NCBI GenBank assembly: GCA_022843745.1 | Contig: JALHNB010000034.1 | Coordinates: 1 to 64,000 of the forward strand | Source: Anaerolineae bacterium | GTDB lineage: Bacteria > Chloroflexota > Anaerolineae > Aggregatilineales > Phototrophicaceae | DNA: 64,000 nt | Reading direction: 5' to 3' | In this document: piece after piece, positions 3,863 to 62,872 of the stretch | How positions within the stretch are numbered: position 1 is the first letter of the stretch | Layout of the letters: the number at the start of each line of letters is the position of its first letter | Notes under the pieces: generated by a model | Seen by the model: only the letters and a program-made list of their open reading frames with translations | Database searches by the model: none | Told to the model about the DNA's origin: nothing | Position numbers and translations under genes: made by a program

Positions 3863-3930
3863 CCAAGGATAGGTATTTCATGCAACCCCTCACCCCCGAC
3901 CCCTCTCCCACAAGGGGCGAGGGAGAAAAA
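3863..3930. repeat. CCCCT palindromic element, copy 3 (extended unit)
   Basis: The unit begins with AAGGATAGGTATTTCATGCA and continues into the CCCCTCACCCCC...CTCTCCCACAAGGGGCGAGGG hairpin. Almost the same unit, including the left flank, occurs at 56568-56640. This shows that the repeated unit is longer than the hairpin. Confidence 0.85.
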
Positions 3931-10662: not shown

Positions 10663-10841
10663 GTAGGGGCGCATGGTGGTGGGGGCAACCTCACCCCCAA
10701 CCCCCTCTCCGCAAGCGAGAGAGGGGGCTTTCCAGACTTGTTACGATCTTTTGTAAGCCTTACGGGAGAATGTGGCAAATCCGAAAAATGTGACCACGCT
10801 GTTGTGTAGTGTGTCATAGCCATGCGCCCTTATAGGCATAG
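10663..10841. repeat. Composite repeat: CCCCT hairpin (copy 4) plus CGTGT/GCGCCC tail
   Basis: AACCTCACCCCCAACCCC and GAGAGAGGGGGCTTT (10686-10731) form the hairpin. About 60 bases on, a tail reads CCACGCTGTTGTGTAG...ATAGCCATGCGCCCTTA. A GTAGGGGCGCATGG piece at 10663 pairs with CCATGCGCCCTTA at the far end. Similar hairpin-plus-tail units occur at 36854-37015, 46091-46184 (minus) and 62723-62872. Confidence 0.7.
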
Positions 10842-15942: not shown

Positions 15943-15990
15943 AACCTCACCCCCCAGCCCCCTCTCCAATGCGTTGGAGAGGGGGAGCAA
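15943..15990. repeat. CCCCT palindromic element, copy 5
   Basis: AACCTCACCCCCCAGCCCCC and TTGGAGAGGGGGAGCAA flank a short loop right behind the hydrolase stop. It could serve as a terminator hairpin, but no T-run follows. Confidence 0.85.
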
Positions 15991-18437: not shown

Positions 18438-18607
18438 TGCGGATCGCTGGGAAGTCAGGATGCTGAGGATAGAGAGCAATTCAATGCATAAGGGGCGCAA
18501 CAGACTGTCGCGCCCCTGGTGTGAATATTATTCAACCTCAGTTTTGGACAACCATTCCAACCCTCACCCGCAATAGCGTTGTCCGGCACTGGGAATGGCA
18601 TTTCATA

Positions 18608-18662
18608 CAACCCCTCCCCCAGCCCCTCCCCATTTCGCAAGCTCATGGAGAGGGGAGCAAAA
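18608..18662. repeat. CCCCT palindromic element, copy 6
   Basis: A full-length type A copy: AACCCCTCCCCCAGCCCCTC then CATTTCGCAAGCTCATGGAG and AGGGGAGCAAAA. The left flank GGCATTTCATACAA resembles the flank GGTATTTCATGCAA of copies 3 and 15b. It lies between two converging genes. Confidence 0.9.
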
Positions 18663-18692
18663 GGCGGCGGAGGGTTCCTAAACTCACATTAT

Positions 18693-20056: not shown

Positions 20057-20166
20057 TTCCCCCTCACCCCCAGCCCCTCTCCCACAAGGGGCGAGGGGAG
20101 CGAAATCACGATTTCAAGTCCCTCTACCCTGAGTGGGAGAGGGACGCTTCGCGAGGGTGAAGGGTG
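20057..20166. repeat. Two adjacent CCCCT elements, copies 7a and 7b
   Basis: Copy 7a (20057-20103) has CCCCTCACCCCCAGCCCCTC and CCCACAAGGGGCGAGGGGAG. Copy 7b (20118-20166) is a divergent hairpin, CCCTCTACCC...GGGAGAGGGACGCTTCGCGA. They occupy the gap between importer B permeases and its binding protein. Confidence 0.8.
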
Positions 20167-22279: not shown

Positions 22280-22348
22280 TTTTCGTCGCTCGGCTTACCT
22301 GCACATGATGATGTAAATTAACAAATTAGGACGGATACCGATTTAAGA

Positions 22349-22372
22349 GGGCACGATACATCGTGCCCCTAC
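22349..22372. repeat. GTAGGGG palindrome family, copy 2
   Basis: GGGCACGATACATCGTGCCC followed by CTAC: a near-perfect dyad with arms GGGCACGAT and ATCGTGCCC. The same core with AT changes occurs at 61261-61285. Confidence 0.85.
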
Positions 22373-22440
22373 GAACACGGGCAGTTATCCATATTTAATT
22401 TTTAAACCGCATTATTGCTCTGTCCCATAATTAGTTCGGT

Positions 22441-22495
22441 TTAACCCCTCCCCCAACCCCTCCCCATTTCGCAAGCTCATGGAGAGGGAAGCAAG
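22441..22495. repeat. CCCCT palindromic element, copy 8
   Basis: A full-length type A copy, almost identical to copies 6 and 16: AACCCCTCCCCCAACCCCTC then CATTTCGCAAGCTCATGGAG and AGGGAAGCAAG. Confidence 0.9.
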
Positions 22496-22814: not shown

Positions 22815-23834
22815 ATGAAGGATGCAAACGAACATCTCAGGCACATTCGCCATGTGTATCCTGATCTCGCGATCACGTTATCGCGGCTGCACGCCAAAGA
22901 GGGGCAGTTCAGCGACATCGTGGTCGTCAACGAGTCGCTGATTTTTCGCTTTCCGCGCACACCGGACGTGGCGAAAGATATGAGTTACGAGGTCGCGCTG
23001 CTGAAGAAATTGCAGGGTCGTCTGCCGCTGCCGATTCCGAATCCGATTTACGAGTATTTTGAAGCCGAAAATTTGACTTTGCCATTTCCGAATCCAGCAA
23101 CCCCTCCCCCAACCTTTCCTTCGGTCACCCATTTCGCTTCGCTCATAGAGAGGGGAGAAAAACGCAATAAAGGGGAGGGCATACAGGATTTCGGTACGAA
23201 TATTGAACATTCACCAACAAAACCCTTGATTTTTATGGGCTATCCGATGATTCCTGGCGCACCCTTGTGGCGCGAAACGCTGGCGGCGATCAAGGATGAG
23301 AAAATATTGGATCGACTCGCGGTGCAGCTTGCGGGATTTTTGAAGGCGCTGCACAGCACTCCTGCCGCTGAGATCACGGATCGTCCGGCAGGAGAGACGC
23401 ACGAGTCATGGTCAGCGATGTATACGGCGATGCGCGATCAGCTTTATCCGCATATGCGGCCTGATGCGCGGCAAAAAGTCAGCGAAAATTTCGAGACGTT
23501 TTTAAGCGATCCGGCCAATTTCGCCTACGAACCTGTGCTGCGGCATGGCGATTTCGGGACAGGGAACATTCTCTATGATGCCGAAAAGGGCGAGATCAGC
23601 GGCGTGATTGATTTTTCGTTCTCCGGGGCAGGGGACATGGCACAGGATGTCGGGGCGCTGCTCGGTTACGGCGAGTCGTTCATGGAGCGCTGCTACGCTG
23701 TCTACCCGGAGATGCGCGAGACGCTCAAGCGGGTGCGTTTTTTCCGCACGACGTATGCGCTGCAACAGGCGCTCTATGCGCTGCGCGATGGGAATCGGGA
23801 GGATTTTGAGGATGGGATGCGGGAATATGTGTAA
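22815..23834 (+). CDS. APH-family phosphotransferase with in-frame repeat insertion
   Basis: The 339-residue protein (ATG 22815; a GTG at 22791 is also in frame) has the APH/ChoK kinase-like fold: YPDLAITLSRLHAKEGQFSD, the ATP-lobe strand VVVNESLIFRFPRT, the catalytic loop LRHGDFGTGNILYD (Asp and Asn) and the metal motif VIDFSFSGAGD. Such enzymes phosphorylate antibiotics, sugars or small alcohols; the substrate here is unknown. Residues about 94-117 (ATPPPTFPSVTHFASLIERG) are encoded by a CCCCT element inserted between LPIPNPIYEYFE and LIFMGYPMIPG. The insertion keeps the frame and falls in the loop between lobes. The last codons and 3' flank are duplicated at 31551-31665. Confidence 0.88.
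   Translation: MKDANEHLRHIRHVYPDLAITLSRLHAKEGQFSDIVVVNESLIFRFPRTPDVAKDMSYEVALLKKLQGRLPLPIPNPIYEYFEAENLTLPFPNPATPPPTFPSVTHFASLIERGEKRNKGEGIQDFGTNIEHSPTKPLIFMGYPMIPGAPLWRETLAAIKDEKILDRLAVQLAGFLKALHSTPAAEITDRPAGETHESWSAMYTAMRDQLYPHMRPDARQKVSENFETFLSDPANFAYEPVLRHGDFGTGNILYDAEKGEISGVIDFSFSGAGDMAQDVGALLGYGESFMERCYAVYPEMRETLKRVRFFRTTYALQQALYALRDGNREDFEDGMREYV
23097..23162. repeat. CCCCT palindromic element, copy 9, inside a coding sequence
   Basis: AACCCCTCCCCCAACCTTTC, TTCGGTCACCCATTTCGCTT and CTCATAGAGAGGGGAGAAAA form a type A copy of the longer form also seen at 36743-36806. It lies wholly within the phosphotransferase frame and adds a proline-rich then basic peptide. Confidence 0.92.
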
Positions 23835-23869
23835 GCATGTGTAAATCATCCCAATTCGAGAAAAGCATT

Positions 23870-23947
23870 ATGCGGCGACTCTGTATTTGTACCCAGCAAT
23901 TTTCTTGCCATGATCTTTCATTAAGCGTTGGTATGCGTTTGCCATAG
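23870..23947 (+). pseudogene. Remnant start of a gene like that at 31647
   Basis: Behind the phosphotransferase stop the sequence ATTCGAGAAAAGCATTATGC is shared with the region ahead of the secreted-protein gene at 31647. The start MRRL is kept, but the frame then departs (CICTQQFSC) and stops after 25 codons. It looks like the stub of a deleted copy of that gene. The match covers only its leader and first codons. Confidence 0.6.
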
Positions 23948-23976
23948 TACACATCGGCGGAAATTCATAATCAGTT

Positions 23977-24000
23977 GGGCACAGCACGCTGTGCCCCTAC
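23977..24000. repeat. GTAGGGG palindrome family, copy 3
   Basis: GGGCACAGCACGCTGTGCCC followed by CTAC; arms GGGCACAGC and GCTGTGCCC. The gap 23948-24301 holds this, copy 4 and a short CCCCT copy; no gene is seen. Confidence 0.85.
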
Positions 24001-24110
24001 AAACAAGTATCTCGTAAGAGTGCCCGGCGGGTCGCCCAATGTTTAGAAATCAGTGTGGTGGAAAATTAGGTTGTGTTGACATTTCAGCCTGATGATCTCA
24101 TTCCCTGGCA

Positions 24111-31527: not shown

Positions 31528-31611
31528 ATGGAGATGACAGCCCGCACGGCGTATGCGCTGCGCGATGGGAATAGGGACGATTTTGAGGATGGGATGCGGG
31601 ATTATGTGTAA
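31528..31611 (+). pseudogene. 3' remnant of a second phosphotransferase copy
   Basis: The frame ends YALRDGNRDDFEDGMRDYV and a stop, against YALRDGNREDFEDGMREYV in the intact gene at 22815-23834. The DNA identity runs on past the stop to about 31665. The remnant lacks the QQALYAL stretch and everything upstream, so it is the tail of a deleted paralogue. Confidence 0.85.
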
Positions 31612-31646
31612 TAATATGTAAATCGTCCCAATTCGAGAAAAGCATT

Positions 31647-32636
31647 ATGCGACGACTCAATATTCTTATTCTTTCCCTGATGTGCCTGATGATATGGAAT
31701 CAGGCAACGAAGGCGGATTTCGGCACAAACTGGACGGCTATATTTTACAACAACACCAACTTTAGCGGCGCACCAGCAGCGAACATTAATGGGGTGAATG
31801 CCATTAATTTCAATTGGCCGCACGTGCCTATCATCAACGGTGTTCCAGTAAATGGAGTCAATGAAGATAATTTTTCAGTACGTTTTACATCGACGCAAAA
31901 TATTGCGCAGGGAAGTTATCAGTTCACTGTTACATATGATGAGCATGTGCGAGTAGTGATTGATGGAAATGTGGAGTTCGAAGATTACGTAAATGACTCT
32001 ATCAGAACGTATTCATTTTCTCGTGCCCTGACCGCAGGCCAACATTCATTACAGGTCGAACTTATTGACTTCACCTCACAAGCAGTCATTCAGCTTCAAT
32101 GGAATCCTGTATTATCCGGCCCACAGCTTATCGCGCCATCCAATGGGGCAAGTATGGAGGATACCACGCCGACATTCTCGTGGAGCGCTGTGCCTACCGC
32201 CGTAGAATATCAAATCCAGATTGATAATAGCAATAACTTTTTCAGTCCTGAGCGAGAGGCAACAGCGACTAATCGCCAGTACACGCCGATCACACCTCTA
32301 CCTCTGGGGTCATATTACTGGCGAGTCCGCGCAACCAACAGCGCATGGAGTGCGGTGCGGCAATTTACGCTTGAGTTGCTCCGACCCAGACTCAACTACT
32401 TTATAACTTCCGATGTCCTGATTACCTGGAATCCGATTAGCTGGGCAGAGAGTTATGTGGTGCAAATCTCTCGGAATTTGGCGTTCACTGATCTGGTGAA
32501 CACTATCCCAAGCGCGGACATTTTCGTTGAATATACGCTTTCAAACGGCACGTATTATTGGCGGGTACGCGCAGTCGCAACCGATCAAACCGGAAAATGG
32601 AGCGCATCAGAGTTAATCACCGTCGATATGCCGTAA
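31647..32636 (+). CDS. Secreted PA14-like domain plus FN3-like repeats
   Basis: A 329-residue protein with a signal peptide (MRRLNILILSLMCLMIW). Residues about 24-155 resemble a PA14 sugar-binding domain: GTNWTAIFYNNTNFSGAP, DNFSVRFTSTQNI, YDEHVRVVIDGN, LTAGQHSLQVELIDFTSQAV. Two FN3-like repeats follow, each ending in the motif YYWRVRA. The same architecture is found at 44969 (minus) and the FN3 type at 6313. It probably binds polysaccharide on the cell surface. Its leader region is copied behind the phosphotransferase gene at 23870. Confidence 0.82.
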   Translation: MRRLNILILSLMCLMIWNQATKADFGTNWTAIFYNNTNFSGAPAANINGVNAINFNWPHVPIINGVPVNGVNEDNFSVRFTSTQNIAQGSYQFTVTYDEHVRVVIDGNVEFEDYVNDSIRTYSFSRALTAGQHSLQVELIDFTSQAVIQLQWNPVLSGPQLIAPSNGASMEDTTPTFSWSAVPTAVEYQIQIDNSNNFFSPEREATATNRQYTPITPLPLGSYYWRVRATNSAWSAVRQFTLELLRPRLNYFITSDVLITWNPISWAESYVVQISRNLAFTDLVNTIPSADIFVEYTLSNGTYYWRVRAVATDQTGKWSASELITVDMP

Positions 32637-33887: not shown

Positions 33888-36737
33888 ATGCAGCAAGTAA
33901 AGCAAAACCAGCAAAAGCAGGAATACCACCAGCAAAACCAGCAAAACAATTGGCACGTGATGGACATCGGAACGATCACGCCAAAACTTAAAACCAGCCA
34001 GGAAGCCGGACTGAACGAGGCTGATATTGCAGGGCGCATCGCCGAATACGGACAGAACGAATTGGTCGAGCGCGGCGGCAGAAGCCCTCTCTCGATTTTA
34101 TGGGAGCAGTTGACCAATCCGCTGGTGCTGCTGCTGATTCTGGCGGCGGTGATCTCGGCGTTTCTGGGCAAGGTGGACAGCGTGATCGCGATTATGGCGA
34201 TTGTGATCCTCAACTCGATCCTGGGTGTTGTTCAGGAGTATCGCGCGGAGCAGGCGATGGCAGCGCTGAAAAAGATGGCGGCTCCGCTGGTGAGAGTACG
34301 GCGTGGGGGCAAAACACAGGATATTCAGGCGCGTGATCTTGTCCCTGGCGATGTGGTTTTGCTGGAAGCGGGGAGTATTGTCCCGGCAGATTCACGGCTT
34401 TTTGAGTCGGCCAATCTGAGCGTGGCGGAAGCGGCCTTAACGGGTGAATCGCAGCCTGTCGAAAAATCGACGGAAGCCTTAAAAGAAGTCGACGCGCCGC
34501 TGGGTGATCGTAGCAATATGGTTTACATGGGTACGGCAGTGACCTATGGACGCGGCAGCGCGATTGTCGTCGAAACAGGGATGCGGACGCAGCTTGGTCG
34601 GATCGCGGAATTGATCCAGGCGGTAGACAGCGACCCAACCCCGCTGCAACGGCGCATGAATGAACTGGGCAAGGTACTGCTAATCGTCGCGCTGGCGGTG
34701 ATGGCGCTGGCATTCCTGGTCGGGCTGACAACGGGACACCCGCTGCAAGAAGTGATGCTGAACGCCGTCGCGATTGCCGTCGCTGTCGTACCAGAGGGTT
34801 TGCCCGCCGTCGTGACGATTGCGCTGGCGTTGGGCGCACAGCGGATGTTGAAACGCAACGCGCTGATCCGCAAATTACCCGCTGTCGAAACGCTCGGCTC
34901 AGTGACGACGATCTGCTCAGATAAAACTGGCACACTGACGAAAAATGAAATGACCGTGACGGTGATCGACGTGGCCGGAAAAACCGAAGCGCTGGTCGAG
35001 GTGGTCAGCCGGGGTGGTTTGAGCGCGTTGATGGCCGCCAGCAATGGCCGCTCAAATGGTGAGGTCAAACCGCATGATCTGGCGGAAGCGCTGCTGCTTA
35101 CCGGAAGCGCACTGTGTAATGACGCTGTTTTGCAGCCTACCGAGTCTGATCCGAAAGCGCTGCACGCGATTGGCGATCCGACAGAAGGGGCGTTGGTGAT
35201 CGCGGCGGCGCATTATGGCATGTACAAGCCGGTGCTTGACCGCGTGTTCCCGCGCGTGGGCGAAGTGCCATTTTCATCGGAACGCAAGCGCATGACCACT
35301 GTGCATCATCTGAATAAAGCGGTCAAACCCGAAGAAGGCTCGGAGGGTGCGCAATATCTGCTCAATCTGCTGGCGGAACTGAAGCGCGAATATATCGGCA
35401 TCACCAAAGGCGCGGTGGACAGCCTGCTGGACGTGTGTGATCGCGTCTGGGTGGATGGAAATATCGTGCCACTGGACGCTGCATGGCGCAAAAACATTGA
35501 AGGAACCAACAACAGGCTGGCGCAGGATGGGCTGCGAGTGCTGGGCATGGCGCTGCATCGCTGGGAGACGCTGCCGACGGATTGGAAGCCGGAAACCGTC
35601 GAAAAAGGGCTGGTTTTCATGGGCATGGTCAGCATTATCGACCCGCCGCGTGTCGAGGTGAAAGAGGCAGTGCGGGTCGCTCGTGGGGCAGGCATTCGCC
35701 CAGTGATGATTACAGGCGATCACCCGCTGACGGCGTTCAATATCGCCAAGCAGCTTGATATCGCCACCGATCAGGACACGGTGCTGACCGGGCATGAACT
35801 GGGCAAAATGTCGCAGGCGGAGTTGGAAGGCGTTGTCGAAAAAGTTGCGGTTTATGCGCGAGTCTCGCCGGAACACAAGCTCAATATCGTGCAAGCGCTG
35901 CAAAATAAAGGCCATATCGTGGCGATGACGGGCGACGGCGTGAATGATGCGCCCGCGCTCAAACGCGCCGATATTGGCGTGGCGATGGGCATCACCGGGA
36001 CGGCGGTCTCGAAAGAAGCGTCGGACATGGTGATCGTGGACGACAATTTCGCGACGATTGTGAGCGCTGTCGAAGAAGGGCGCACGATTTATGACAATGT
36101 GCGGCGTTTTGTCAAATATCTGCTGGCGAGCAATACGGGCGAGTTGATCGTGCTGCTGTTCACGCAGTTGATCGCGGGGATGACGCTGCCGCTGACGACG
36201 CTGCAAATTCTGTGGATGAACCTGATTACCGACGGTATCCCGGCGCTGGCGTTGGGCATCGAAGAATCGGAACAGGGCAGCATGAAACGCCCGCCGTATG
36301 CCCCGAACGAGAGCATTTTTGGGCGCGGCATGGCGCGGCATATTCTGCTGGTCGGCGCGGCGCTGGGTGGCACAGGTCTGGCGCTCGGCTATTGGGCATG
36401 GTCGAACGGGATCACGGCGGCGGACGGCGGCCCGGCCTGGAATACGCTGGTATTCATGTTTTTGACGATGGCGCAGATGGGACATGCACTAGGCCTGCGT
36501 TCGCACCGCGAGTCTCTGTTTTCGATGAATATTTTCGGCAACCGCTTCCTCGTGTGGGCGGTGGTGGCAACACTTGCACTGCAATTGGTGGCGATTTACG
36601 CACCATTTTTCAACAACCTCTTTAACACGCATCCGCTGACGCTGGGGCAGCTTGCGCTGTGTCTGGTCATCAGCACGGTGGTGTTCTGGGTGGTGGAGTT
36701 GGAAAAACTGCTGATTAGACGGGGTGTGTTGAAGTAA
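33888..36737 (+). CDS. Cation-transporting P-type ATPase (Ca2+/SERCA-like, P2A)
   Basis: A 949-residue pump from ATG 33888. P-type landmarks: LTGESQPVEK (actuator), PEGLPAVVTIALALG (helix 4 ion site), CSDKTGTLTKNEMTV (phosphorylated Asp), MITGDHPLTA, TGDGVNDAPALKRADIGVAM, and helix 6 MNLITDGIPALALG with Asn and Asp ion ligands as in SERCA. It exports Ca2+ or another cation with ATP. The first about 25 residues are Gln/Asn-rich (MQQVKQNQQKQEYHQQNQQN), unusual for the family; the domain proper starts at NNWHVMDIG. The open frame continues upstream to a TTG at 33771 with more Gln/Asn/Thr. Confidence 0.93.
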   Translation: MQQVKQNQQKQEYHQQNQQNNWHVMDIGTITPKLKTSQEAGLNEADIAGRIAEYGQNELVERGGRSPLSILWEQLTNPLVLLLILAAVISAFLGKVDSVIAIMAIVILNSILGVVQEYRAEQAMAALKKMAAPLVRVRRGGKTQDIQARDLVPGDVVLLEAGSIVPADSRLFESANLSVAEAALTGESQPVEKSTEALKEVDAPLGDRSNMVYMGTAVTYGRGSAIVVETGMRTQLGRIAELIQAVDSDPTPLQRRMNELGKVLLIVALAVMALAFLVGLTTGHPLQEVMLNAVAIAVAVVPEGLPAVVTIALALGAQRMLKRNALIRKLPAVETLGSVTTICSDKTGTLTKNEMTVTVIDVAGKTEALVEVVSRGGLSALMAASNGRSNGEVKPHDLAEALLLTGSALCNDAVLQPTESDPKALHAIGDPTEGALVIAAAHYGMYKPVLDRVFPRVGEVPFSSERKRMTTVHHLNKAVKPEEGSEGAQYLLNLLAELKREYIGITKGAVDSLLDVCDRVWVDGNIVPLDAAWRKNIEGTNNRLAQDGLRVLGMALHRWETLPTDWKPETVEKGLVFMGMVSIIDPPRVEVKEAVRVARGAGIRPVMITGDHPLTAFNIAKQLDIATDQDTVLTGHELGKMSQAELEGVVEKVAVYARVSPEHKLNIVQALQNKGHIVAMTGDGVNDAPALKRADIGVAMGITGTAVSKEASDMVIVDDNFATIVSAVEEGRTIYDNVRRFVKYLLASNTGELIVLLFTQLIAGMTLPLTTLQILWMNLITDGIPALALGIEESEQGSMKRPPYAPNESIFGRGMARHILLVGAALGGTGLALGYWAWSNGITAADGGPAWNTLVFMFLTMAQMGHALGLRSHRESLFSMNIFGNRFLVWAVVATLALQLVAIYAPFFNNLFNTHPLTLGQLALCLVISTVVFWVVELEKLLIRRGVLK

Positions 36738-36742: not shown

Positions 36743-36806
36743 ACCCAACGCCTCCCCAACCTTTCCTTCGGTCACCCATTTCGCAAGCTCATGGAGAGGG
36801 GCTTTT
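36743..36806. repeat. CCCCT palindromic element, copy 11 (long form)
   Basis: CCTCCCCAACCTTTCCTTCG then GTCACCCATTTCGCAAGCTC and ATGGAGAGGGGCTTTTA. It shares the CTTTCCTTCGGTCACCC insert with in-gene copy 9 at 23097. A short T-run follows the hairpin directly behind the ATPase stop. Confidence 0.9.
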
Positions 36807-36853
36807 ATAAGGGCATGCGACTGCATTAGCACCATATGATGGCTTGGTAAAGG

Positions 36854-37015
36854 CAACCTCACCCCAACCCCTCTCCGAATTCAGAGAGGGGCTTTTTTTA
36901 GACCTGTTGCGACATTTTGTGTCCGTCTAATCGGGGTAAGACCAGTGATCGCATGAGGGGTAGAAATTCGTTACCACACTATCGTGTAGCCATATCACCG
37001 CGATGCGCCCGCGAT
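36854..37015. repeat. Composite repeat: CCCCT hairpin (copy 12) plus tail
   Basis: The hairpin is followed, about 75 bases on, by the tail CCACACTATCGTGTAGCCAT...CACCGCGATGCGCCC. The tail closely matches those at 10790-10841, 46091-46134 (minus) and, partly, 62830-62872. Together with copy 11 it fills the gap between two converging genes. Confidence 0.75.
36868..36899. terminator. Terminator formed by a CCCCT element
   Basis: CCCCTCTC and GAGAGGGG pair perfectly across the loop CGAATTCA, followed by CTTTTTTT. It sits between the converging ATPase and tetR genes and has all features of an intrinsic terminator on the plus strand. Confidence 0.7.
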
Positions 37016-37804: not shown

Positions 37805-39271
37805 ATGATAAACGAGCGAAAAATGCCGCCAGCGACGCGGCCTGTGAAAAATATTCTGGATTTGCTGGAACTTTTCCGCAATATGCGCGACGATTTATTG
37901 GGGATCATGGTGGATGGCTTCAAGGAATATGGCGACCTGTTCATGTTCGAGGTCAAGGGACAGCCGCTGCAATATATGATGGCGCACCCGGATCATATCC
38001 AGGAAGTGACCGTGAAGCAGGCGGACAAATTCATCAAAAATTCTGACTACACCGACAGGCACAAGGGAATCGCGCGATTTTTGGGCAACGGTTTGCTGAC
38101 GAGCAACGGCGAATTCTGGAAACGCCAGCGCAAACTGGTCGCGCCAGCACTGCACGCCCGACGGATCGAAAGCTACGCGCAGACGATGGTCGATAGCACG
38201 CTGAAGATGCTTGAGGGCTGGCAGGGTCAACGCGAGGTCGATATTGACGAGGAGATGATGAAGACGACATTGGCAATCGTCGCCAGGTCGCTTTTTAACG
38301 TCGATGTTTCCGGTGAATCGCGCAAAATCGGCGATGCGATGGCGGTCATGCAGGATATGTTCGGCGCGACCAGCGGGGTGGAGGCGCTGCTGCCCTGGTG
38401 GATTCCGACTCCAGGGCGGTTTGCTTCGCGGCGGGCGGTGCGCGATCTGAACGAGATTGTATATCGCATCATCCGCGAACGGCGACAAACGAACGAGGAT
38501 TTGGGCGATTTACTCTCCATGCTGCTGCTGGCGCAGGACGACGCGGGGCAGGGGATGACTGACGAGCAGGTGCGCGACGAGGCCGTGACGATGTTCCTGG
38601 CGGGGCATGACACGACGGCGAATACGCTCAACTGGACGTGGGTTTTGCTGGCGCAGCACCCGGAAATCGAGGCGAAACTGCACGACGAAATTGACCGAGT
38701 TTTAGAGGGTCGTGCGCCCACACTGGCGGATTTGAAACGGCTGCCCTATGTGGAAATGGTCATCAAGGAGTCGATGCGGCTGTACCCGCCTGCGTTCACG
38801 TTCAGCCGGGCGGCGGCAGTGGACACAGAAATCGGCGGCTACCATGTGCCGAAGGGTACGGTGATTACGGTGGTGTCGTATTACACGCATCGCCATGCGG
38901 ACTGGTGGGACGAGCCGGAAGCGTTCAAGCCGGAGCGATTTGGCGAACAGGTTTATGACCCCTCACCCCCGTCCCCTCTCCCCTTGCAAGGGGAGAGAGG
39001 GGTAGATGCGGAAGGTGAGCGATCATTCACCAGTGGAATCAAGCATCGGTATGCGTACATTCCGTTTGGGGCAGGGCCGCGCGTGTGCATCGGCAACAGT
39101 TTCGCGATGATGGAAGCGCAGTTGATGCTGGCGACGATTGCGCAGCGTTATCAGTTGCGACTCGCGCCGGGGCAGGTGGTCGAGCCGGAACCGCTGCTCA
39201 CGCTGAGGCCGAAGGGTGGTCTGAAAATGCGGGTCGAGGAAAGAGTGAGAGAAAGAGAGAAATTCATTTAA
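37805..39271 (+). CDS. Cytochrome P450 with in-frame repeat insertion
   Basis: A 488-residue soluble P450. Landmarks: I-helix FLAGHDTTANTLNW (Asp-Thr pair for oxygen activation), K-helix KESMRLYPP (E-x-x-R), FKPERFG, and the heme loop FGAGPRVCIGNSFAMMEAQL with the axial Cys near residue 428. N-terminal NILDLLELFRNMRDDLLGIM suits the CYP102-like bacterial group. Residues about 385-400 (PSPPSPLPLQGERGV) come from a CCCCT element inserted between FKPERFGEQVY and KHRYAYIPFG, in the meander before the heme loop. Redox partner genes are absent nearby. Start ATG has GAGGGA. Confidence 0.93.
   Translation: MINERKMPPATRPVKNILDLLELFRNMRDDLLGIMVDGFKEYGDLFMFEVKGQPLQYMMAHPDHIQEVTVKQADKFIKNSDYTDRHKGIARFLGNGLLTSNGEFWKRQRKLVAPALHARRIESYAQTMVDSTLKMLEGWQGQREVDIDEEMMKTTLAIVARSLFNVDVSGESRKIGDAMAVMQDMFGATSGVEALLPWWIPTPGRFASRRAVRDLNEIVYRIIRERRQTNEDLGDLLSMLLLAQDDAGQGMTDEQVRDEAVTMFLAGHDTTANTLNWTWVLLAQHPEIEAKLHDEIDRVLEGRAPTLADLKRLPYVEMVIKESMRLYPPAFTFSRAAAVDTEIGGYHVPKGTVITVVSYYTHRHADWWDEPEAFKPERFGEQVYDPSPPSPLPLQGERGVDAEGERSFTSGIKHRYAYIPFGAGPRVCIGNSFAMMEAQLMLATIAQRYQLRLAPGQVVEPEPLLTLRPKGGLKMRVEERVREREKFI
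38958..39003. repeat. CCCCT palindromic element, copy 13, inside a coding sequence
   Basis: CCCCTCACCCCCGTCCCCTC and CCCTTGCAAGGGGAGAGAGG form a type B hairpin in frame within the P450 gene. It codes for PSPPSPLPLQGERG. Confidence 0.92.
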
Positions 39272-46090: not shown

Positions 46091-46184
46091 TAAAAGGGCA
46101 CATCGCGGTGATATTGGGACACGATGGCGTGGTGAATTCTAAACCCCTCACCCCAAACCCCTCTCCCACAAGGGGCGAGGGGCT
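46091..46184 (-). repeat. Composite repeat: CCCCT hairpin (copy 14) plus tail, minus orientation
   Basis: The hairpin at 46141-46184 has AAACCCCTCACCCCAAACCC and CCCACAAGGGGCGAGGGGCT. Its left neighbour reads on the minus strand CCACGCCATCGTGTCCCAAT and ATCACCGCGATGTGCCC, the tail seen at 36972-37014 and near 10790. Confidence 0.7.
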
Positions 46185-48873: not shown

Positions 48874-49422
48874 ATGTCCATTCGATATGCGATTCTCGGC
48901 TTTTTAAGTGCAAATCCCTTAAGCGGCTATGACCTGAAAAAGCTGTTTGAAGAGTCCTCTGTTTTCCACTGGTCAGGGAATAACAATCAGGTCTATAGGA
49001 CGCTGGTGGAGCTGCACAACGAGGGGTTAGTGACACAGGAAGTGCAGCAGCAGGCCGATTATCCCGCCCGCAAAATCTACACGATTACTGAAAAAGGGTT
49101 AGCGGAACTCCGCCAATGGGTGCTTTCCGAGCCGGAACTGCCGCAAATCAAAAGTTCATTTCTGGTGCAGCTTGCGTGGGCGGATCAGCTTGAGGCCGAT
49201 GCGCTCGACGATTTGCTGCGGAAATATGACGCAGAAATTCACGACCAGCTCATCGTCGTGCAGGAACACAAACGGCGAAGTAAAACGTCGCCACAACGGA
49301 CACCGCGCGAAGCCTATCTGTGGGAGGCGATCATGGATAACAAGATTTTGTACTACGAAACCGAACTGAATTGGGTACGCACTGTGCGCGAAACGCTCAA
49401 TGAAATGGGAAAGGACAAATAA
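48874..49422 (+). CDS. PadR-family transcriptional regulator
   Basis: About 182 residues. The winged helix reads MSIRYAILGFLSANPLSGYD, LKKLFEESSVFHWSGNNNQV, YRTLVELHNEGLV and IYTITEKGLAELRQW, all PadR hallmarks; the C-terminal helices mediate dimer contact. GAGGA precedes two adjacent ATG codons (48871, 48874); a TTG at 48862 is also in frame. It is two bases ahead of the hydrolase gene, so both are co-transcribed, and an operator-like dyad lies upstream. Confidence 0.92.
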   Translation: MSIRYAILGFLSANPLSGYDLKKLFEESSVFHWSGNNNQVYRTLVELHNEGLVTQEVQQQADYPARKIYTITEKGLAELRQWVLSEPELPQIKSSFLVQLAWADQLEADALDDLLRKYDAEIHDQLIVVQEHKRRSKTSPQRTPREAYLWEAIMDNKILYYETELNWVRTVRETLNEMGKDK

Positions 49423-49424
49423 TC

Positions 49425-50285
49425 ATGACAACCAATCCGTCGATCTATAAGACACCAGATGGTGAAAAAGTCGTCATGGCGATTTACGAGAAGGCGTTGG
49501 CGAATTGGCCTGTGCCTTATGAAAGGCTGAATTTTTCGGCACGGCATGGCGAAACATTCGTGATCGCCTGCGGCCCTATCTCCGCGCCGCCGCTGATTCT
49601 GCTGCACGGGGCAGGCACCAATTCGGCTATCTGGGGCGCAGACATTGCCGATTACAGCCGATATTTTCGCGTTTATGCGGTTGATCTACTCGGCGAGGCC
49701 GGGAAAAGTGCGCCGAATCGCCCCGCATGGGACAGCCCAGCCTATGCTGAATGGCTTGAAGATGTGTTCACTGCACTCCGCATCGAAAAAGCCGTGCTGG
49801 TGGGCATCTCTCAAGGCGGGTGGACGGCTTTGAAATTTGCGGTGTCCAGGCCGGAGCGCGTGGAAAAACTGGTTCTGATGTGCCCTGGCGGGATTATTCC
49901 TGACCGCGTATCGTTTATTTTCCGCGCCATTGGATTATCGCTGCTCGGCGAGTGGGGAACGAAACAGCTTGTACGGATGCTTTACGGTGGGGAGCCGATA
50001 CCGGAAGGCGTCGAGGAAATTATCGTCCAGATGACGCGCAATTTTAATCCGCGTATGGGCGTGCTGCCGATATTTTCGGATGAAGAACTGCGACGGCTGA
50101 CTATGCCGACTTTACTGATCGGCGGCACAAAAGATGCGCTGCGTGATATTCCAAAAATTGCCGCGCGACTGGAAACGTTTCTGCCACAGCTTGAGGTGAT
50201 GATTATTCCAGGGGCAGGGCATGTGTTGATGAATACCATGAGTCGCATCCTGGCATTTCTGGAGGTTGAGGAAAAGGTTGTTTAA
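49425..50285 (+). CDS. Alpha/beta hydrolase
   Basis: A 286-residue cytoplasmic enzyme. Motifs: LILLHGAGTNSAIWG (oxyanion hole), VYAVDLLGEAGKSAPNRP, the nucleophile elbow LVGISQGGWTALKFA (Ser), TLLIGGTKDALRD (acid region) and IIPGAGHVLM (catalytic His). The full triad is present. It is coupled to padR, which suggests inducible hydrolysis of an ester or similar compound. Substrate unknown. Confidence 0.92.
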   Translation: MTTNPSIYKTPDGEKVVMAIYEKALANWPVPYERLNFSARHGETFVIACGPISAPPLILLHGAGTNSAIWGADIADYSRYFRVYAVDLLGEAGKSAPNRPAWDSPAYAEWLEDVFTALRIEKAVLVGISQGGWTALKFAVSRPERVEKLVLMCPGGIIPDRVSFIFRAIGLSLLGEWGTKQLVRMLYGGEPIPEGVEEIIVQMTRNFNPRMGVLPIFSDEELRRLTMPTLLIGGTKDALRDIPKIAARLETFLPQLEVMIIPGAGHVLMNTMSRILAFLEVEEKVV

Positions 50286-50335
50286 CTGGACTTTTTGCCA
50301 GTGGTGAGGTGGCGATAATTCGAGAAGAATATTGA

Positions 50336-50366
50336 ACCACAGAGACACAAAGGACACAGAGAGGTT
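50336..50366. repeat. CACAGAG-type dispersed repeat, copy 3
   Basis: ACCACAGAGACACAAAGGAC followed by ACAGAGAGG. Its final GAGAGG lies seven bases before the next ATG and serves as the ribosome site of that gene. Confidence 0.75.
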
Positions 50367-50372
50367 TAGACA

Positions 50373-50747
50373 ATGCAAACCTATGAAGTGGTTGAGGCGT
50401 GGCAGGAAGCCGTCAACGCGCAGGATGTTAAGCACCTGCTGGAACTTTCGGACGAAAAAATCGAGCTTGTGGGGCCGCGCGGGTCAGCCTATGGGCATCC
50501 GGTGTTGAAGGAATGGCTGGCGCGGGCGGGGTTGACGCTGGAAACGCTGCAAATTTTCGCGCATGGCGATGTGGTGGTTGTCGCGCAGCATGGCGTATGG
50601 AATTCGCAGATGGGCGCAGGTGAGGCCGATATTGCGTCGATTTTCGAAATTCACGGTGGGCGAGTGGCGCGGTTTAAGCGATTCGATCATCTTGAGGATG
50701 CGCTGAGGGAGGCGGGGTTGAGCGAGGCAGATGCAATTGAAGGTTAG
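50373..50747 (+). CDS. SnoaL-like/NTF2-fold protein
   Basis: A 124-residue protein: VVEAWQEAVNAQDVKHLLEL, IELVGPRGSAYGHPVLKEWL, FAHGDVVVVAQHGVWN and IFEIHGGRVARFKRFDHLED. This is the cone-shaped SnoaL/NTF2 pattern of small ligand-binding or isomerase-like proteins. The ribosome site is donated by the repeat upstream. No clear catalytic Asp-His pair can be assigned, so the role is unknown. Confidence 0.8.
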   Translation: MQTYEVVEAWQEAVNAQDVKHLLELSDEKIELVGPRGSAYGHPVLKEWLARAGLTLETLQIFAHGDVVVVAQHGVWNSQMGAGEADIASIFEIHGGRVARFKRFDHLEDALREAGLSEADAIEG

Positions 50748-50859
50748 CAAAGCTGCTGTCGATGGCGGTGATTGTACAGGCGATGGGCCGAAACACGTGG
50801 ATTGAGAGGGTTATGGAATCGGCCACCTGACAAGCGTACAATGAGAATCAGGAGGCAAA

Positions 50860-51585
50860 ATGTCTCAAATATCTACACCTCAGATCGAGAGTAAAATCAA
50901 TCGCTACAGTCTAAACGCTGTTGCCAGGCATCAGGTCGGCGCGATTTTCGTTGCGGGATTGGTCTTTTTGGGCGCGGGAACGCTGAACTGGACGTGGGGA
51001 TGGGTGTTTGGCGTTGTTTATTTCCTGTGCTGGCTTGTGGTAAGTGCTGCCCTCTGGCGCTATAACCCCGAACTGCTCACCGTGCGCGGCAAAAGTACCA
51101 GCCAATTGAGCGGGGGGAAGTGGTGGGACTGGGTGCTGCTGACGCTGTACACGCTGGTTTTCATCGGGCAGCCGTTCGTCGCCGGGCTGGATTTTCGCTA
51201 TAGGTGGTCAGCACCTTCTGAACCAATTATTTACATCCTCGGAAATCTGTTGATGCTGGCGGCTTATTTCCTGCTGGCATGGTCCATGGTCGTCAACCGA
51301 AATTTTGAAGCAATAGTACGCATCCAGGAAGATCGGGTTCATCGCGTTATTACCTCCGGCCCGTATCGCTTTGTGCGTCATCCAGGGTATGTCAGTGTAA
51401 TTCTGAGCTTTGTCGCACTTCCGATAGCTTTGGGTACGTGGACAGCGCTGATTCCGGGACTTATCGGAATCGTGGTCTTCGTTATTCGCACAGCACTGGA
51501 AGACCGCAGCTTACAGGCTGAACTGCCCGGTTATGCGGATTATGCCCATCAGACACGCTCTCGCCTGCTGCCGGGTGTGTGGTAG
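50860..51585 (+). CDS. Isoprenylcysteine carboxyl methyltransferase-like membrane protein
   Basis: A 241-residue protein with about five hydrophobic helices and the ICMT C-terminal signature: VHRVITSGPYRFVRHPGYVS, then EDRSLQAELPGYADYAHQTR. This segment binds S-adenosylmethionine at the membrane surface. In bacteria such proteins probably methylate lipid-like or small substrates, since prenylated proteins are absent. A strong AGGAGG site precedes the ATG. Single-gene unit. Confidence 0.88.
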   Translation: MSQISTPQIESKINRYSLNAVARHQVGAIFVAGLVFLGAGTLNWTWGWVFGVVYFLCWLVVSAALWRYNPELLTVRGKSTSQLSGGKWWDWVLLTLYTLVFIGQPFVAGLDFRYRWSAPSEPIIYILGNLLMLAAYFLLAWSMVVNRNFEAIVRIQEDRVHRVITSGPYRFVRHPGYVSVILSFVALPIALGTWTALIPGLIGIVVFVIRTALEDRSLQAELPGYADYAHQTRSRLLPGVW

Positions 51586-51594
51586 CACATCGGT

Positions 51595-52407
51595 TCATTT
51601 CAGGCGGCGGTTGATGAGCGCGATAATTTCCTCGGCGCTTTCTTCAATGGGCTTATCGGTGGTGTCGATGATGGCGAATTGACCCCGGCGAAAAACCTCA
51701 CGGGCAAATTCAAGTTCGTCGTAAAGCTCGGCGGGTGCGGTATAGGGCGTATTGGGGGCGATCCCCAGATGATGACTGCGGCGCTGGCGATAGGCGACAA
51801 GCTGCCCTGCCTCGATCATGAGGCCGACAACGCGACGGTGGTCGATCTGAAACAGGGCGGAGGGTGGGCTGATGCCATTGACCAATGGGATATTGGCGAC
51901 TTTCCAGCCCAAAATCGACAGGTACATGCTTAATGGGGTTTTGCCGACCCGCGATACCCCGGTGAGGACTATCTCGGCTTGCGACAGTTCGTAAGCACGT
52001 TTGCCATCGTCATGATTCACGGCAAATTCGATAGCTTCGATGCGTTTGAGGTCACGCTCGCGCATTTTGTGGTACAGGCCGGGCTGTCCAACAGGGGTCT
52101 GCCCCAGAGATCGGGTCAACTGGTCAAGCAGCGGCCCCAAAAGATCGACCTCCGGGACATGATTAATTTTCGCCAGATTCAGCAGTTCGCAGCGCAAATT
52201 CGCATCGACCAGCGTGTGAACGAGCAGGCCGCCAACGGATGCCGCCTGGGCGACTACCTGTTCCAACTGCTCCCGTTGGCGCACCTGCGGCACGATGGTC
52301 ACGGGGATGTCGTTGGTCAGAAACTGCGCCAGCGCCGTCTGCAATATCTGCCAACCGCTGGTTCCCACGCCGCCCGAAACGATGAAAATTGTTGGTTTTG
52401 TCACCAC
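51595..52407 (-). CDS. PEP synthase/pyruvate phosphate dikinase regulatory protein (DUF299)
   Basis: A 270-residue bifunctional kinase/pyrophosphorylase-type regulator. The N-terminus reads IFIVSGGVGTSGWQILQTAL, HTLVDANLR occurs mid-way, and the P-loop-like motif is LTGVSRVGKTPLSMYLS; EAIEFAVNHDDG is also typical. Such proteins (also called PSRP/PDRP) switch PEP synthase or PPDK off and on by phosphorylating a Thr near the catalytic His. It starts at GTG 52407, overlapping the end of the hydrolase gene by seven bases. The target enzyme gene is not in the window. Confidence 0.9.
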   Translation of the reverse strand: MVTKPTIFIVSGGVGTSGWQILQTALAQFLTNDIPVTIVPQVRQREQLEQVVAQAASVGGLLVHTLVDANLRCELLNLAKINHVPEVDLLGPLLDQLTRSLGQTPVGQPGLYHKMRERDLKRIEAIEFAVNHDDGKRAYELSQAEIVLTGVSRVGKTPLSMYLSILGWKVANIPLVNGISPPSALFQIDHRRVVGLMIEAGQLVAYRQRRSHHLGIAPNTPYTAPAELYDELEFAREVFRRGQFAIIDTTDKPIEESAEEIIALINRRLK

Positions 52408-53339
52408 ATTGAGTTTTCCAATGGCTTATGAGAACGCACTGCATCGACTACTAATCGGATGCCTTCTACAACGGTTTCTGGCTCATGCAGTATCACAAGA
52501 TGATCGCTGTAGGATGCCGGAAGCAGCTTGCTATTAGACGAAAACTTCAGGAAATCTGACTGAACGCCTCTCCACTCCGGTATATCCCCTAATGCTTGAG
52601 TCACCACGACCACAGGCTTATCGCCGAGAATATTTTTGATCTCGATATTCGGGTCAAGCAGTTTGATCTCCCGTGAGCCGCTGTAGAGCATGGCGTGCGA
52701 ATGCAAGGCGACACATGCGCCTTTTGCCGCTGGTGACATGGGCAGCTCCATATATCGGAGCCAGGTTTCCAGACGAACCAGCCCGATGAATGACAGCAAA
52801 CGACTGGTCAACATATCCTGCACGATCTTCAACCGCCCCGGCCACATGACCGGGTGGAACGAATCGACCAGAACGATACCCGCTACGAGATCGGGATAAC
52901 GGCGGGCGAATTGGTACACGTACTGACCGCCGATGTCATGACCGACCAGAATGCAGGGCGTGGGAATCTCGGCTTTGACAATAAGATCATGAAGCTCCTG
53001 CACGATGACCTGGTCATTGCGTTCACGATGTTCTGTGGTCTGTGGGTCGTCGCTCCAACCGTAGCCGGCTCGATCATAGGCATAAACAGAGGTGAAGCCG
53101 GCAACTTCGCGCTGCACCATATCCCACTTGGCTGAAAAACCGAGGCTGCCGCCTTCGAGGATCACAGAAGGCACGTTTTTTGCGTCACCCATATGCAGCA
53201 AGTGAAGCCGCAGACCGCCGATGTCGATCAATTTCCCTGGCGGCGGGTATTTGCGGCGATCCCGCAACATCAGCAGATATTCCAGAACCGCCGCGACAGT
53301 CACGATCACAAAAATGAGGATAAAAATATCTGTCGTCAT
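52401..53339 (-). CDS. Membrane-anchored alpha/beta hydrolase with Asp nucleophile
   Basis: A 312-residue protein with an N-terminal helix (IFILIFVIVTVAAVLEYLLM) and a hydrolase domain: GKLIDIGGLRLHLLHMGD, VILEGGSLGFSAKW, YDRAGYGWSDDPQ, and the elbow ILVGHDIGGQYVYQFA. The usual Ser is Asp, as in haloalkane dehalogenases and epoxide hydrolases, which implies a covalent alkyl-ester intermediate. SDHLVILHEPE near the end may carry the catalytic His. It resembles 14923 (Ser version) in overall plan. It lies between a deazaflavin-type reductase and the PEP-synthase regulator, overlapping the latter. Confidence 0.88.
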   Translation of the reverse strand: MTTDIFILIFVIVTVAAVLEYLLMLRDRRKYPPPGKLIDIGGLRLHLLHMGDAKNVPSVILEGGSLGFSAKWDMVQREVAGFTSVYAYDRAGYGWSDDPQTTEHRERNDQVIVQELHDLIVKAEIPTPCILVGHDIGGQYVYQFARRYPDLVAGIVLVDSFHPVMWPGRLKIVQDMLTSRLLSFIGLVRLETWLRYMELPMSPAAKGACVALHSHAMLYSGSREIKLLDPNIEIKNILGDKPVVVVTQALGDIPEWRGVQSDFLKFSSNSKLLPASYSDHLVILHEPETVVEGIRLVVDAVRSHKPLENSMW

Positions 53340-53358
53340 TTGTGCAACCTCGTTTGAT

Positions 53359-53832
53359 TCACTCCACCAGAGTCACGCGGACGGCGACCACTTTGGGGGC
53401 AGTGCGCCGGACATCATCCATATTCGGCTTGTTTTCGTCAGCCAGCCGGATGCCATAAAATGTGGCCTGATTCGGATATTGGGTGATGGCTTCGGCAAGC
53501 AGCGGAACAATTGTCTCTTCATCTATATGGGCTTTGGCCGTGCCGTGATAGGTTCTTCGCTGGATCAGCAGTTCAACCGGGGCAGCATCTGCAAAATTGC
53601 GCCACCAACCGCGAAACCACTTCGTCAATATCGTAACGGTCTGTCCCTCGCGCACATAGCCGACGGGAATGGTATAGCGTTTGCCGGATTTGCGTCCGGT
53701 GTACGTCAGGAGCATGATCTGGTTGCTCATCAGACGATGGAGCAGCGGTGTATGCAGCAGGAATGATACGACAGCGTTGGAGGAGGGCGACGGCGACCAT
53801 TCCCAGGGGCGGGGTGTTGTCGTATTGAACAT
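53359..53832 (-). CDS. Deazaflavin (F420)-dependent nitroreductase-like protein (DDN family)
   Basis: About 157 residues from ATG 53832, which has AAGGGA upstream; the longer frame to 53895 lacks a good site. MLLTYTGRKSGKRYTIPVGY and TILTKWFRGWWRNFADAAPV are the F420-binding motifs of the DDN/split-barrel family. Such enzymes use reduced F420 to reduce unsaturated compounds. It starts a three-gene minus-strand operon with the Asp-type hydrolase 19 bases downstream. Confidence 0.88.
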   Translation of the reverse strand: MFNTTTPRPWEWSPSPSSNAVVSFLLHTPLLHRLMSNQIMLLTYTGRKSGKRYTIPVGYVREGQTVTILTKWFRGWWRNFADAAPVELLIQRRTYHGTAKAHIDEETIVPLLAEAITQYPNQATFYGIRLADENKPNMDDVRRTAPKVVAVRVTLVE

Positions 53833-54070
53833 GAAATTTCCCTTTAGAAGGACATCATTCGACAGGTATTTTTGTTTTGCAGTCCCCCTTATCATGACGT
53901 TAGCGCGAAATTCACTTCACGGCACGTAACGGACATCGGGAATTAAATATGTCGAAGATCACACCTCGAACAGGACAAATTGACTTAAAAGTCGTTAATC
54001 AATTCTAAAATATTTGATGCTATACTTAAAATTGTAATGTTTGTAATCTTGCAAATGGAGTTCTATTTTT

Positions 54071-54484
54071 ATGCCTTACAAGATGAACTGGTATATTGAA
54101 AATGAGGTTGTCTATACCCAATATTGGGGTGTGACCACCGCCGAGGAAATGCAGAATTCGCTCATTCAAGTAAAGGAATTTATTGATCACAGCGAACGTC
54201 AACTGGTACATATGATTATGGATGTCAGCGCTATTACAGAAGCGGTGCCGCTGACAGACTCTATACGGATTACTCGCGAAGTAGGGCCACATGAGCGTGC
54301 AGGCTGGACGGTCACCGTTGGCGAAAAATCCCCTATTTCTAAAATGGCATCTGCAATGGGAGCCTCGCTTTTTAAGCTGCGTCTTAAGGGTGTTGGCACT
54401 CTCGACGAAGCCTTCGATCACCTGAAATTTTTCGACTCGACCCTTAGCTGGGACAAAGCCGAAGAATCCATTCTGAGCCGGTGA
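54071..54484 (+). CDS. STAS/SpoIIAA-like single-domain protein
   Basis: A 137-residue protein with alternating strands and helices: YIENEVVYTQYWGVTTAEEM, LVHMIMDVSAITEAVPL, GWTVTVGEKSPISKMA and GTLDEAFDHLKFFD. The layout (strand-helix-strand with ...HMIMDVS...) resembles SpoIIAA/STAS-like proteins common in Chloroflexota, with no enzyme signature. It could bind a lipid or act as a partner-switch module. The call is from pattern only. Confidence 0.6.
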   Translation: MPYKMNWYIENEVVYTQYWGVTTAEEMQNSLIQVKEFIDHSERQLVHMIMDVSAITEAVPLTDSIRITREVGPHERAGWTVTVGEKSPISKMASAMGASLFKLRLKGVGTLDEAFDHLKFFDSTLSWDKAEESILSR

Positions 54485-54758
54485 AGCCTCGGTATTGCAA
54501 CCATCAATTTTCATGGGGCACCATAGTGTAACGTACAATCACGACGATGATCGCTGGCGGTGTGCTGTGTCAACCTGCTAAAAAACGGGCGGAAAATAAG
54601 GCCTTGCGATAAACCGAACAGGCGAAAATACAGCACATTTGGATAACATTGCTTTTCAGGCGGGTGGAATGTTCATACATATCTGCTATGTTGTTATTGG
54701 GCAAATTCGGCTACAGTGATGACCTATCGTCAACGTAGATGGTGTCAGGCTCAAATGA

Positions 54759-55565: not shown

Positions 55566-55625
55566 AGCCTGGGCGGATGAAGTCGGTAACGGATAACGAT
55601 CATGAGTGAAGTCGATAAAGGGTAA
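55539..55625 (+). repeat. Three tandem copies of a gene tail
   Basis: The gene ends WADEVVNG and TGA (to 55565). Then AWADEVGNG with TAA (55567-55596) and MSEVDKG with TAA (55602-55625) follow at about 30-base spacing. Each copy keeps its own stop codon. The last stop lies five bases before the next ATG. Confidence 0.85.
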
Positions 55626-56544: not shown

Positions 56545-56640
56545 CAACCCCTCCCCCGACCCCCTTTCAAGGGTAGGTATTTCATGCAACCCCTCACCCC
56601 CAGCCCCTCTCCCACAAGGGGCGAGGGGAGAAAAAGGCGG
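56545..56640. repeat. CCCCT elements, copies 15a and 15b
   Basis: 15a (56545-56572) is a short hairpin fragment, AACCCCTCCCCCGACCCCCT then TTCAAGGG. 15b (56573-56640) begins TAGGTATTTCATGCAACCCC and is nearly identical to copy 3 at 3863-3930. They lie directly behind the transglutaminase stop. Confidence 0.85.
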
Positions 56641-56742
56641 CGGGGTGGGGTTGAAGACTGCAAACTCTACGGCTGAAATTTCAATGAAGAAATAACCAGT
56701 ACCACAGACATACCACCACGGTAGCAGGCTGCAAAATCATGT

Positions 56743-61101: not shown

Positions 61102-61155
61102 GAACCCCTCCCCCGACCCCTCCCCATTTCGCAAGCTCATGGAGAGGGGAGCAAG
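61102..61155. repeat. CCCCT palindromic element, copy 16
   Basis: A full-length type A copy: AACCCCTCCCCCGACCCCTC then CATTTCGCAAGCTCATGGAG and AGGGGAGCAAG. It is almost identical to copies 6 and 8. Confidence 0.9.
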
Positions 61156-61225
61156 ACAATTCTCACATCCGAATTATTTGCGGGACGGGGCAATGATACG
61201 TTTTAACAAAACAAGTACAGATTTT

Positions 61226-62722: not shown

Positions 62723-62872
62723 GAACCTCACCCCCCAGCCCCCTCCCCGAATTCAGGGAGGGGGAGCCAGAGCGTTCGTAAAGGCGCAAATGATCGAATC
62801 AACTGACACATCTGCCTGTAACAATCCGTAAACACGCTATCGTGTGGTGCTACCACGACCATACGCTGTACA
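62723..62872. repeat. Composite repeat: CCCCT hairpin (copy 17) plus tail
   Basis: AACCTCACCCCCCAGCCCCC and TCCCCGAATTCAGGGAGGGG form the hairpin; the AATTC loop matches copy 12. About 60 bases on, ACACGCTATCGTGTGGTGCT matches the beginning of the tail seen at 36972, with a more diverged end. Confidence 0.7.

Follow-up and report, generated by a model that had tools for sequence, protein, structure and literature searches.

In-frame palindromic repeats in protein genes of an Anaerolineae genome: a copy in an APH-family kinase gene and a possible DUF559 nuclease partner

In the literature covered here, palindromes in frame in protein genes are known chiefly from Rickettsia and Wolbachia and from a survey of intragenic REPs. 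The Rickettsia palindromic elements (RPEs), which also occur in Wolbachia, are dispersed palindromes that lie in frame in unrelated protein genes (PMC2229807, PMC10969869). Intragenic GTAG/CGTC REPs are found in the ORFs of several bacteria, where their dimers code for 20-30 residues, and that survey advances a tolerance argument for them (PMC3733652). The same text reports the motif GGGGWSAS for the repeats of TIRYT transposases, says that the CGTC class has no dedicated transposase, and points, through the title of one of its references, to insertion sequences that target REPs.

The locus described here represents a further family of these already known in-frame palindromes, now also in an 8-Mb genome. 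It lies in a 64,000-nucleotide stretch of an Anaerolineae bacterium (contig JALHNB010000034.1 of assembly GCA_022843745.1, positions 1 to 64,000), which we call the window; all window coordinates below refer to it, and the features listed lie on its forward strand. As with the RPEs, a palindromic repeat sits in frame in protein genes. A preliminary description of the window had drawn this likeness and assigned the element to a family unrelated to the RPEs, and judged by description the two do look different, since the consensus here lacks GTAG/CGTC ends and a search of 60 related genomes did not find the focal subtype. The host is another one, with a genome of 8 Mb, and the CGTC end tag of RPE-4 and RPE-6 is not at the ends of our 118-copy profile consensus, although CGTC does occur internally. 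The copies, as sized by blastn, are mostly 38-60 nt and the focal one 82 nt, compared with 105-146 bp given for RPEs. A DUF559 nuclease flanks palindromes in our data, whereas the sections of PMC2229807 and PMC10969869 considered here do not mention one for RPEs. This partnership looks new, and we found no DUF559-palindrome link in the open-licence literature.

Other described systems share some features with the family and differ in others. Intragenic REPs are likewise small palindromes inside ORFs, but their terminal GTAG/CGTC is absent from the family consensus, and whereas a RAYT gene is bounded by its REP repeat, neither Y1 transposase locus of this genome (L039, L040) holds the repeat. 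The TIR elements of TIRYTs share the hairpin architecture, and GGGGWSAS occurs in 59 of 118 copies here, the focal one not among them; their partner is a Y1 transposase, whereas the flanking partner here is DUF559. Inteins with homing endonucleases resemble our loci in that a nuclease ORF lies in frame at recurrent sites of conserved genes (PriA; MetH by eye), but inteins carry a splicing domain, and none was seen among the matches listed (E 1e-5, and for two proteins the top 25) for the PriA, MetH, PurL and HdrA/GltA-like hosts. MITEs of the ERIC/RU type are also non-autonomous and form in-frame fusions (PMC2229807), and terminal inverted repeats are a MITE feature that the focal copy shares. 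In our searches, however, neither a convincing target-site duplication nor a known transposase turned up.

The focal copy lies within an open reading frame at 22815..23834 that matches the APH phosphotransferase family (PF01636, E=1.6e-26). The frame stays open across the added segment, and the HGD and IDFSF motifs are present, so the preliminary description was right about a palindromic element in frame in a phosphotransferase gene and about the intact motifs of the enzyme. Its dimensions have to be revised. In a MAFFT alignment with 29 homologues (L037, L038 and L120-L146), kinase residues 88-136 are matched by no letter in any of them. The extra segment therefore comprises 49 residues, encoded at 23076..23222, instead of the roughly 22 first proposed, whose coding starts at 23097. 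Comparison with orthologues had been chosen beforehand as the test that could refute an insertion; all 29 lack the segment, and the segment resembles dispersed repeats, which supports an RPE-like insertion of a palindrome in frame.

The protein structure match leads to the same boundary. Aligned to APH(2'')-Id (4dtb), the kinase match splits into query residues 10-87 and 134-337. The break, where the chain positions are 88 and 86, coincides with the gap in the alignment of homologues. The insert precedes the FMGYPMIPG segment. It had been placed between the kinase lobes, but if we name the hinge correctly it lies before it, presumably in an N-lobe hairpin. A structure prediction from two sequences reached a pLDDT of 39 and gave no usable fold, so the alignments are what carries the claim of an extra loop. 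A family search of the kinase ORF gave no match to a DUF559 domain, leaving the focal copy as palindrome only, and a search for a Hint splicing domain found none; 49 residues are in any case far too short for an intein.

The kinase is sporadic. Two of 61 genomes (our own and 60 relatives) match at 1e-20 and 29 of 396 genomes of the class sample at 1e-25, our own being counted in both, and a search of public genome contigs gave one locus; one relative, L038, sits in a record titled Anaerolineae bacterium. Such a distribution would suit a dying or unexpressed gene whose open frame is accidental, but we consider this very improbable. The frame has no stop or frameshift, the coding score is positive on both sides, the catalytic motifs are kept, and copies lie in frame in 11 other genes of the same genome sample, those for RecD2 and a cytochrome P450 among them.

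Within the extra segment, the repeat itself spans about 23099..23180, in place of the 23097-23162 given initially. It belongs to a dispersed C-rich/G-rich palindrome family: 23090-23190 as query has 43 matches in its own genome at E<=0.001, the best of them 90-93% identical over about 59 nt, and the 31 nt at 23107-23137 are identical to 36754-36784. An outer inverted repeat has its left arm at 23091..23109 and its right arm at 23172..23190; these 19-nt arms are 79% complementary and partly paired in the predicted fold. The region folds modestly better than shuffled sequences (z -2.2; 4 of 200 shuffles at least as good), and Rfam at gathering scores has 0 matches over the window.

Further copies are scattered along the window. 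The one that shares the 31 nt (36746..36801) lies outside called genes, another (22443..22494) lies upstream of the kinase gene, and two more are at 18607..18675 and 61103..61157. A second in-frame copy, at 38958..39000, lies in a cytochrome P450 gene (ORF 37844-39271, P450 match 1e-94), whose match to the solved structure 7wzl breaks around the element (query 369/400 against chain 407/412). A related subtype, marked by TCACCCC, is found at 3881..3930, 10685..10730, 15943..15988, 20057..20105, 36853..36891, 46142..46182, 56585..56645 and 62723..62770.

Most simply, the repeat would have entered the kinase gene in this lineage. A recent insertion is suggested by the contrast between its DNA, which is about 90% identical to dispersed copies, and the matched part of the kinase protein, which shares only 37-52% identity with the homologues. 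The 49-residue segment is wider than the repeat copy, however, and about 65 nt of the 147-nt insert lie outside it. Besides themselves, the 53 nt from 23173 onward have just 13-nt chance matches in the sampled 1.58 Mb, so that part of the extra loop may, judging by that sample, have some other origin. These 65 nt might speak for ordinary loop growth or an assembly error with no mobile element involved. We attach almost no probability to that, given that a dispersed family accounts for 82 nt and that other genes and genomes also contain members of this family or its relatives. Candidate target-site duplications amount to matches of 4-5 nt with 3 nt of slack, which chance readily gives; this, like the non-repeat portion of the insert, counts against the mobile-element reading that we favor below.

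To place the focal copy in its genomic setting, we took a census of its own genome (G000; 117 contigs totaling 7.96 Mb, with a completeness of 98.6% and a contamination of 4.0%). The sample of 1.576 Mb comprised contigs C1, C7, C11, C15, C18 and C20 in whole, the window, and 20 kb of each of 16 contigs. Six window copies served as blastn queries, and merging of their hits left 118. A gene caller with a simple codon model predicted 1337 genes covering 86.7% of the sample, yet only 13 hits lie inside genes (12 of them), while 3 run over gene ends and 102 are intergenic. The caller can call only open genes, so open frames follow from its construction. A strict coding test with 240-nt flanks had listed 3 in-frame copies only, without the focal gene; it was superseded by a frame-spanning test, which gives 11 in-frame copies in 10 genes. 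One of the 13 in-gene hits (C1:296021) is just 26 nt long, and the sequence around it reads as family-like.

Many genes of this genome thus carry in-frame family copies, which occur in various frames and in both orientations. The hosts include the APH kinase, the P450, a PfkB kinase, a metallophosphatase, a beta-lactamase-family protein and RecD2, and a TPR/DUF5107 protein carries two copies. Beyond the census sample, in-frame copies occur in GT4 and GT2 glycosyltransferases, an AlkZ-like protein and PriA (L238), and L030, which has no Pfam match, is a further candidate. For RecD2 and the beta-lactamase-family protein, alignment to a solved structure is interrupted around the element. Two others add little: the PfkB alignment runs through the element with gaps, and the GT4 match begins after it.

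Insertions that had split a gene might be expected as close same-strand genes on both sides of a copy, an arrangement seen for 18 census hits (17 gene pairs). Split genes were sought in 15 of the 17 pairs, 5 by eye and 10 by Pfam, and none was seen; Pfam gave nothing for 3 of the 20 proteins submitted to it, which makes two of the pairs weaker evidence. We rejected the idea of a repeat adapted for openness in every frame. Copies of at least 38 nt, 115 in number, are open in a mean of 4.17 of six frames, compared with 4.41 in dinucleotide shuffles, and 200 of 200 shuffled sets were at least as open as the real copies. Hit density is uneven, with 46 in C15 (149 kb) and 4 in C1 (412 kb), about a 30-fold difference. 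Contamination as the source of the repeat-rich contigs was also rejected, as the seven longest pieces are alike in tetranucleotide composition, with correlations of 0.976 or more. Inspection by eye turned up inverted dimers of about 125 bp, BIME-like, at L002, L009 and L013. On contig C18, palindromes lie between phage-tail-like genes at about 49000-57500 (C18:51040 and 56922), and one is in frame in another gene at 34194-36086 (C18:34502), with functions assigned by eye.

As to what moves the copies, one possibility is an IS200/IS605-like tyrosine transposase, a RAYT or a TIRYT, acting in trans on a REP- or TIR-type element. The hairpin, the one-sided tag and the inverted dimers (L009 and L013, by eye) are REP-like, two genome matches exceed the transposase family cut-off (L039 and L040), and the 59 copies with GGGGWSAS compare with a mean of 6.8 and a maximum of 12 in 50 shuffled sets, although the 118 copies are mutually related and their count does not represent 118 independent events. 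Against this, the family profile finds no element at either locus within a flank of about 1.5 kb on each side, L040 is a 28.9-bit match within a 1157-aa frame, and the better match, L039 (G000:C101), has another palindrome at its boundaries, GCCGGATGGCTTTTAGCCTCCGGC on one side and a variant of it on the other (by eye). As neither locus holds a recognizable copy, L039 and L040 are unsupported as partners of the repeat. With the focal copy also lacking the motif, we judge a tyrosine transposase to be an unlikely mover.

For comparison with related genomes we drew 60 relatives, none of the same genus and the nearest of the same family; across these and the genome itself, the 82-nt focal copy matches its own genome only. 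The motif CCTCACCCCCNNCCCCTCTCC is found in 29 of the 61 genomes, at up to 58 sites (the maximum being in our own genome), while its backward reading was never found in the 61. In 20 stretches per genome, 4 of 23 sites in G012 and 4 of 14 non-edge sites in G041 are in genes, 9 sites of G041 having been left out because they were close to where a stretch ends. In G012 the in-gene sites are spread over 3 genes, and one G041 site ends 3 codons before the stop. Hosts in these two genomes include an E2 acyltransferase and Fe-S flavoproteins that look HdrA-like by eye.

One protein of G012, L169, provides a potential clue to the mobility of the palindromes, in that it has a DUF559 endonuclease domain between element peptides. 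DUF559 (PF04480) is a Vsr-like endonuclease of the PD-(D/E)XK type. It matches in 30 of the 61 genomes and, at 1e-20, in 91 of the 301 phylum genomes searched, and it is a testable partner. The repeat-bearing genome itself has two DUF559 genes (contigs C62 and C72), which are among the loci read here (L296 and L220). Many matches lie in frames of 500-1700 aa, some of which may be native architectures. By family search the hosts are MetH (TIGR02082, over cut-off), PurL/PurQ, PriA, MmeI-type and N6 DNA methylases and a DUF1156 protein, and an HdrA2/GltA-like oxidoreductase matches its family below the cut-offs. We name a host only if an alignment, visual inspection or a family search shows it.

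Palindromes of this kind flank DUF559 ORFs above background, both where these are free-standing and where they lie in frame in conserved genes. We examined the 30 best-scoring DUF559 loci of the order, of which 22 were usable (1 cut, 7 without the motif that places the domain), and 29 loci of the phylum, where the removal of 1 cut locus and 2 lacking that motif left 26. A C/T-type hairpin was looked for within a 250-nt flank, with controls at least 700 nt away. It is present on at least one side of 18 of 22 order loci and on both sides of 9, against 5 of 107 controls, and on at least one side of 21 of 26 phylum loci and both sides of 9, against 7 of 138 controls. For the order sample, the counts at 5', 3' and both flanks are 12/15/9 in the test used and were 15/15/12 in a first version. 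Other GC-rich hairpins showed no enrichment.

A profile trained solely on the 118 sampled copies of the own genome gives a corresponding result. It recognizes palindromes in 36 of 98 flank windows and in 5 of 251 controls (odds ratio 29, Fisher 1.4e-17, an optimistic value because the loci are the best-scoring ones and not random, and windows and genomes are non-independent). The order loci contribute 25 hits from 46 flanks and the phylum loci 11 from 52; both flanks are recognized at 9 order loci and 1 of 26 phylum loci. The two DUF559 genes of the own genome lie outside the training sample, and the profile hits L296 on both sides and L220 on its 5' side. By eye, the palindromes at L296 are in inverted arrangement around the nuclease gene.

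The same insertion site can be compared between genomes in PriA, just before the Walker segment LLHGVTGSGKTE, where we read the translations by eye for the best 30 of 59 matches in 57 genomes. DUF559 and palindromes are both present in L237. In L239, a DUF559-like stretch reads VIEIED for VIEVDG, and no clear palindrome peptide is left. Palindromes without a nuclease are seen in L238 (the own genome), L240, L241 and L254, L245 runs off the end of its contig, and in the remaining 23 no element was recognized by eye. The DUF559 search supplied a further PriA with palindrome and nuclease, L212, which is cut by its contig. Palindrome-only and palindrome-plus-nuclease states therefore alternate between genomes at one PriA site. 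At an FGE-type domain (assigned by Pfam for L169 and by eye for L222 and L175), L169 and L222 have the order palindrome-DUF559-palindrome, and L175 has a palindrome alone at the same place. In MetH, DUF559 occupies the same place in L299 (family search) and in L300, L307 and L293 (by eye).

As far as can be told from sequence, the DUF559 insert would stay in the host protein. In L304 (G453), DUF559 lies in an intein-like insert of a DNA methylase, apparently as its nuclease (TIGR01443, the C-terminal signature, above cut-off); L301 (G686) resembles it by eye, but the family search gave no intein match there.

Taken together, these observations lead us to a model in which palindromes and DUF559 form one mobile system and the focal repeat is a nuclease-less copy within it, a reading to which we give about an even chance. 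We infer that DUF559 mobilizes the palindromes. The nuclease, made from few copies, would cut at or near palindromes, perhaps at extruded hairpins, and repair of the break would place further copies of the palindrome elsewhere, sometimes together with the nuclease gene and sometimes alone. Insertions that break a frame would be purged by selection, and in-frame ones in loops would be tolerated. The focal copy could then be one of the members that lack the nuclease, or a scar at a site where it has been lost, and the outcome a kinase with a long extra loop.

Several results weigh against this model. The genome has two DUF559 genes compared with 118 repeat hits in a fifth of its length, the profile recognizes no palindrome on either side of the nuclease in 7 of the 23 loci from the order and 16 of the 26 from the phylum, and GGGGWSAS in half the copies favors the tyrosine transposase instead, although the focal copy is without it. 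The excess of palindromes over nuclease genes would also fit a different relationship, in which some other route spreads the palindromes and DUF559 genes merely home into them as safe landing pads, so that the focal copy has no nuclease history. This accounts for much of the same data, and the intein-like insert of L304 suggests that DUF559 might also serve some other carrier as its homing nuclease. It leaves the mover of the palindromes unnamed, however, and the inverted palindromes on both sides of DUF559 at L296 argue against it. We therefore regard landing pads as a rather doubtful account.

A stronger form of the one-system model would make palindromes and DUF559 a new class of selfish element that homes in frame into genes and is kept unspliced. 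Palindromes of the kinase type would be its nuclease-less forms, and the sites in conserved genes (PriA, MetH, DNA methylases) would be homing sites that pass through empty, nuclease-plus-palindrome, decayed-nuclease and palindrome-only states. We put this forward tentatively, as possible but somewhat less than probable. Should DUF559 prove to be the partner, this would offer a mechanism by which bacterial proteins gain new loops, and would account for Pro-rich inserts in conserved proteins, among them those that PriA has at one place. We also count in favor of the one-system model that VsrA, a DUF559 protein, is reported to be needed for the SOS response in Caulobacter cells lacking a methyltransferase (PMC12907096).

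Some minor observations concern the repeats and the kinase locus. An Fe-S flavoprotein of G041 (L193, contig C143; HdrA-like by eye) has three in-frame peptides of the palindrome type. Many repeat sites of G041 lie within 100 nt of contig ends; assemblies thus seem to break at palindromes, and copy numbers may be underestimates. A second palindromic family, of the GGGCACGATACATCGTGCCCC type, stands beside the kinase gene at 22348-22379 and 23976-24007, and elsewhere at 61261-61292. Finally, the 3' end of the kinase gene and the DNA downstream of it (23775-23887) are repeated 7.8 kb away at 31552-31664 with 91% identity, and this copy again codes for the last ~25 residues of the kinase; it is either a duplication or what is left of a second copy.
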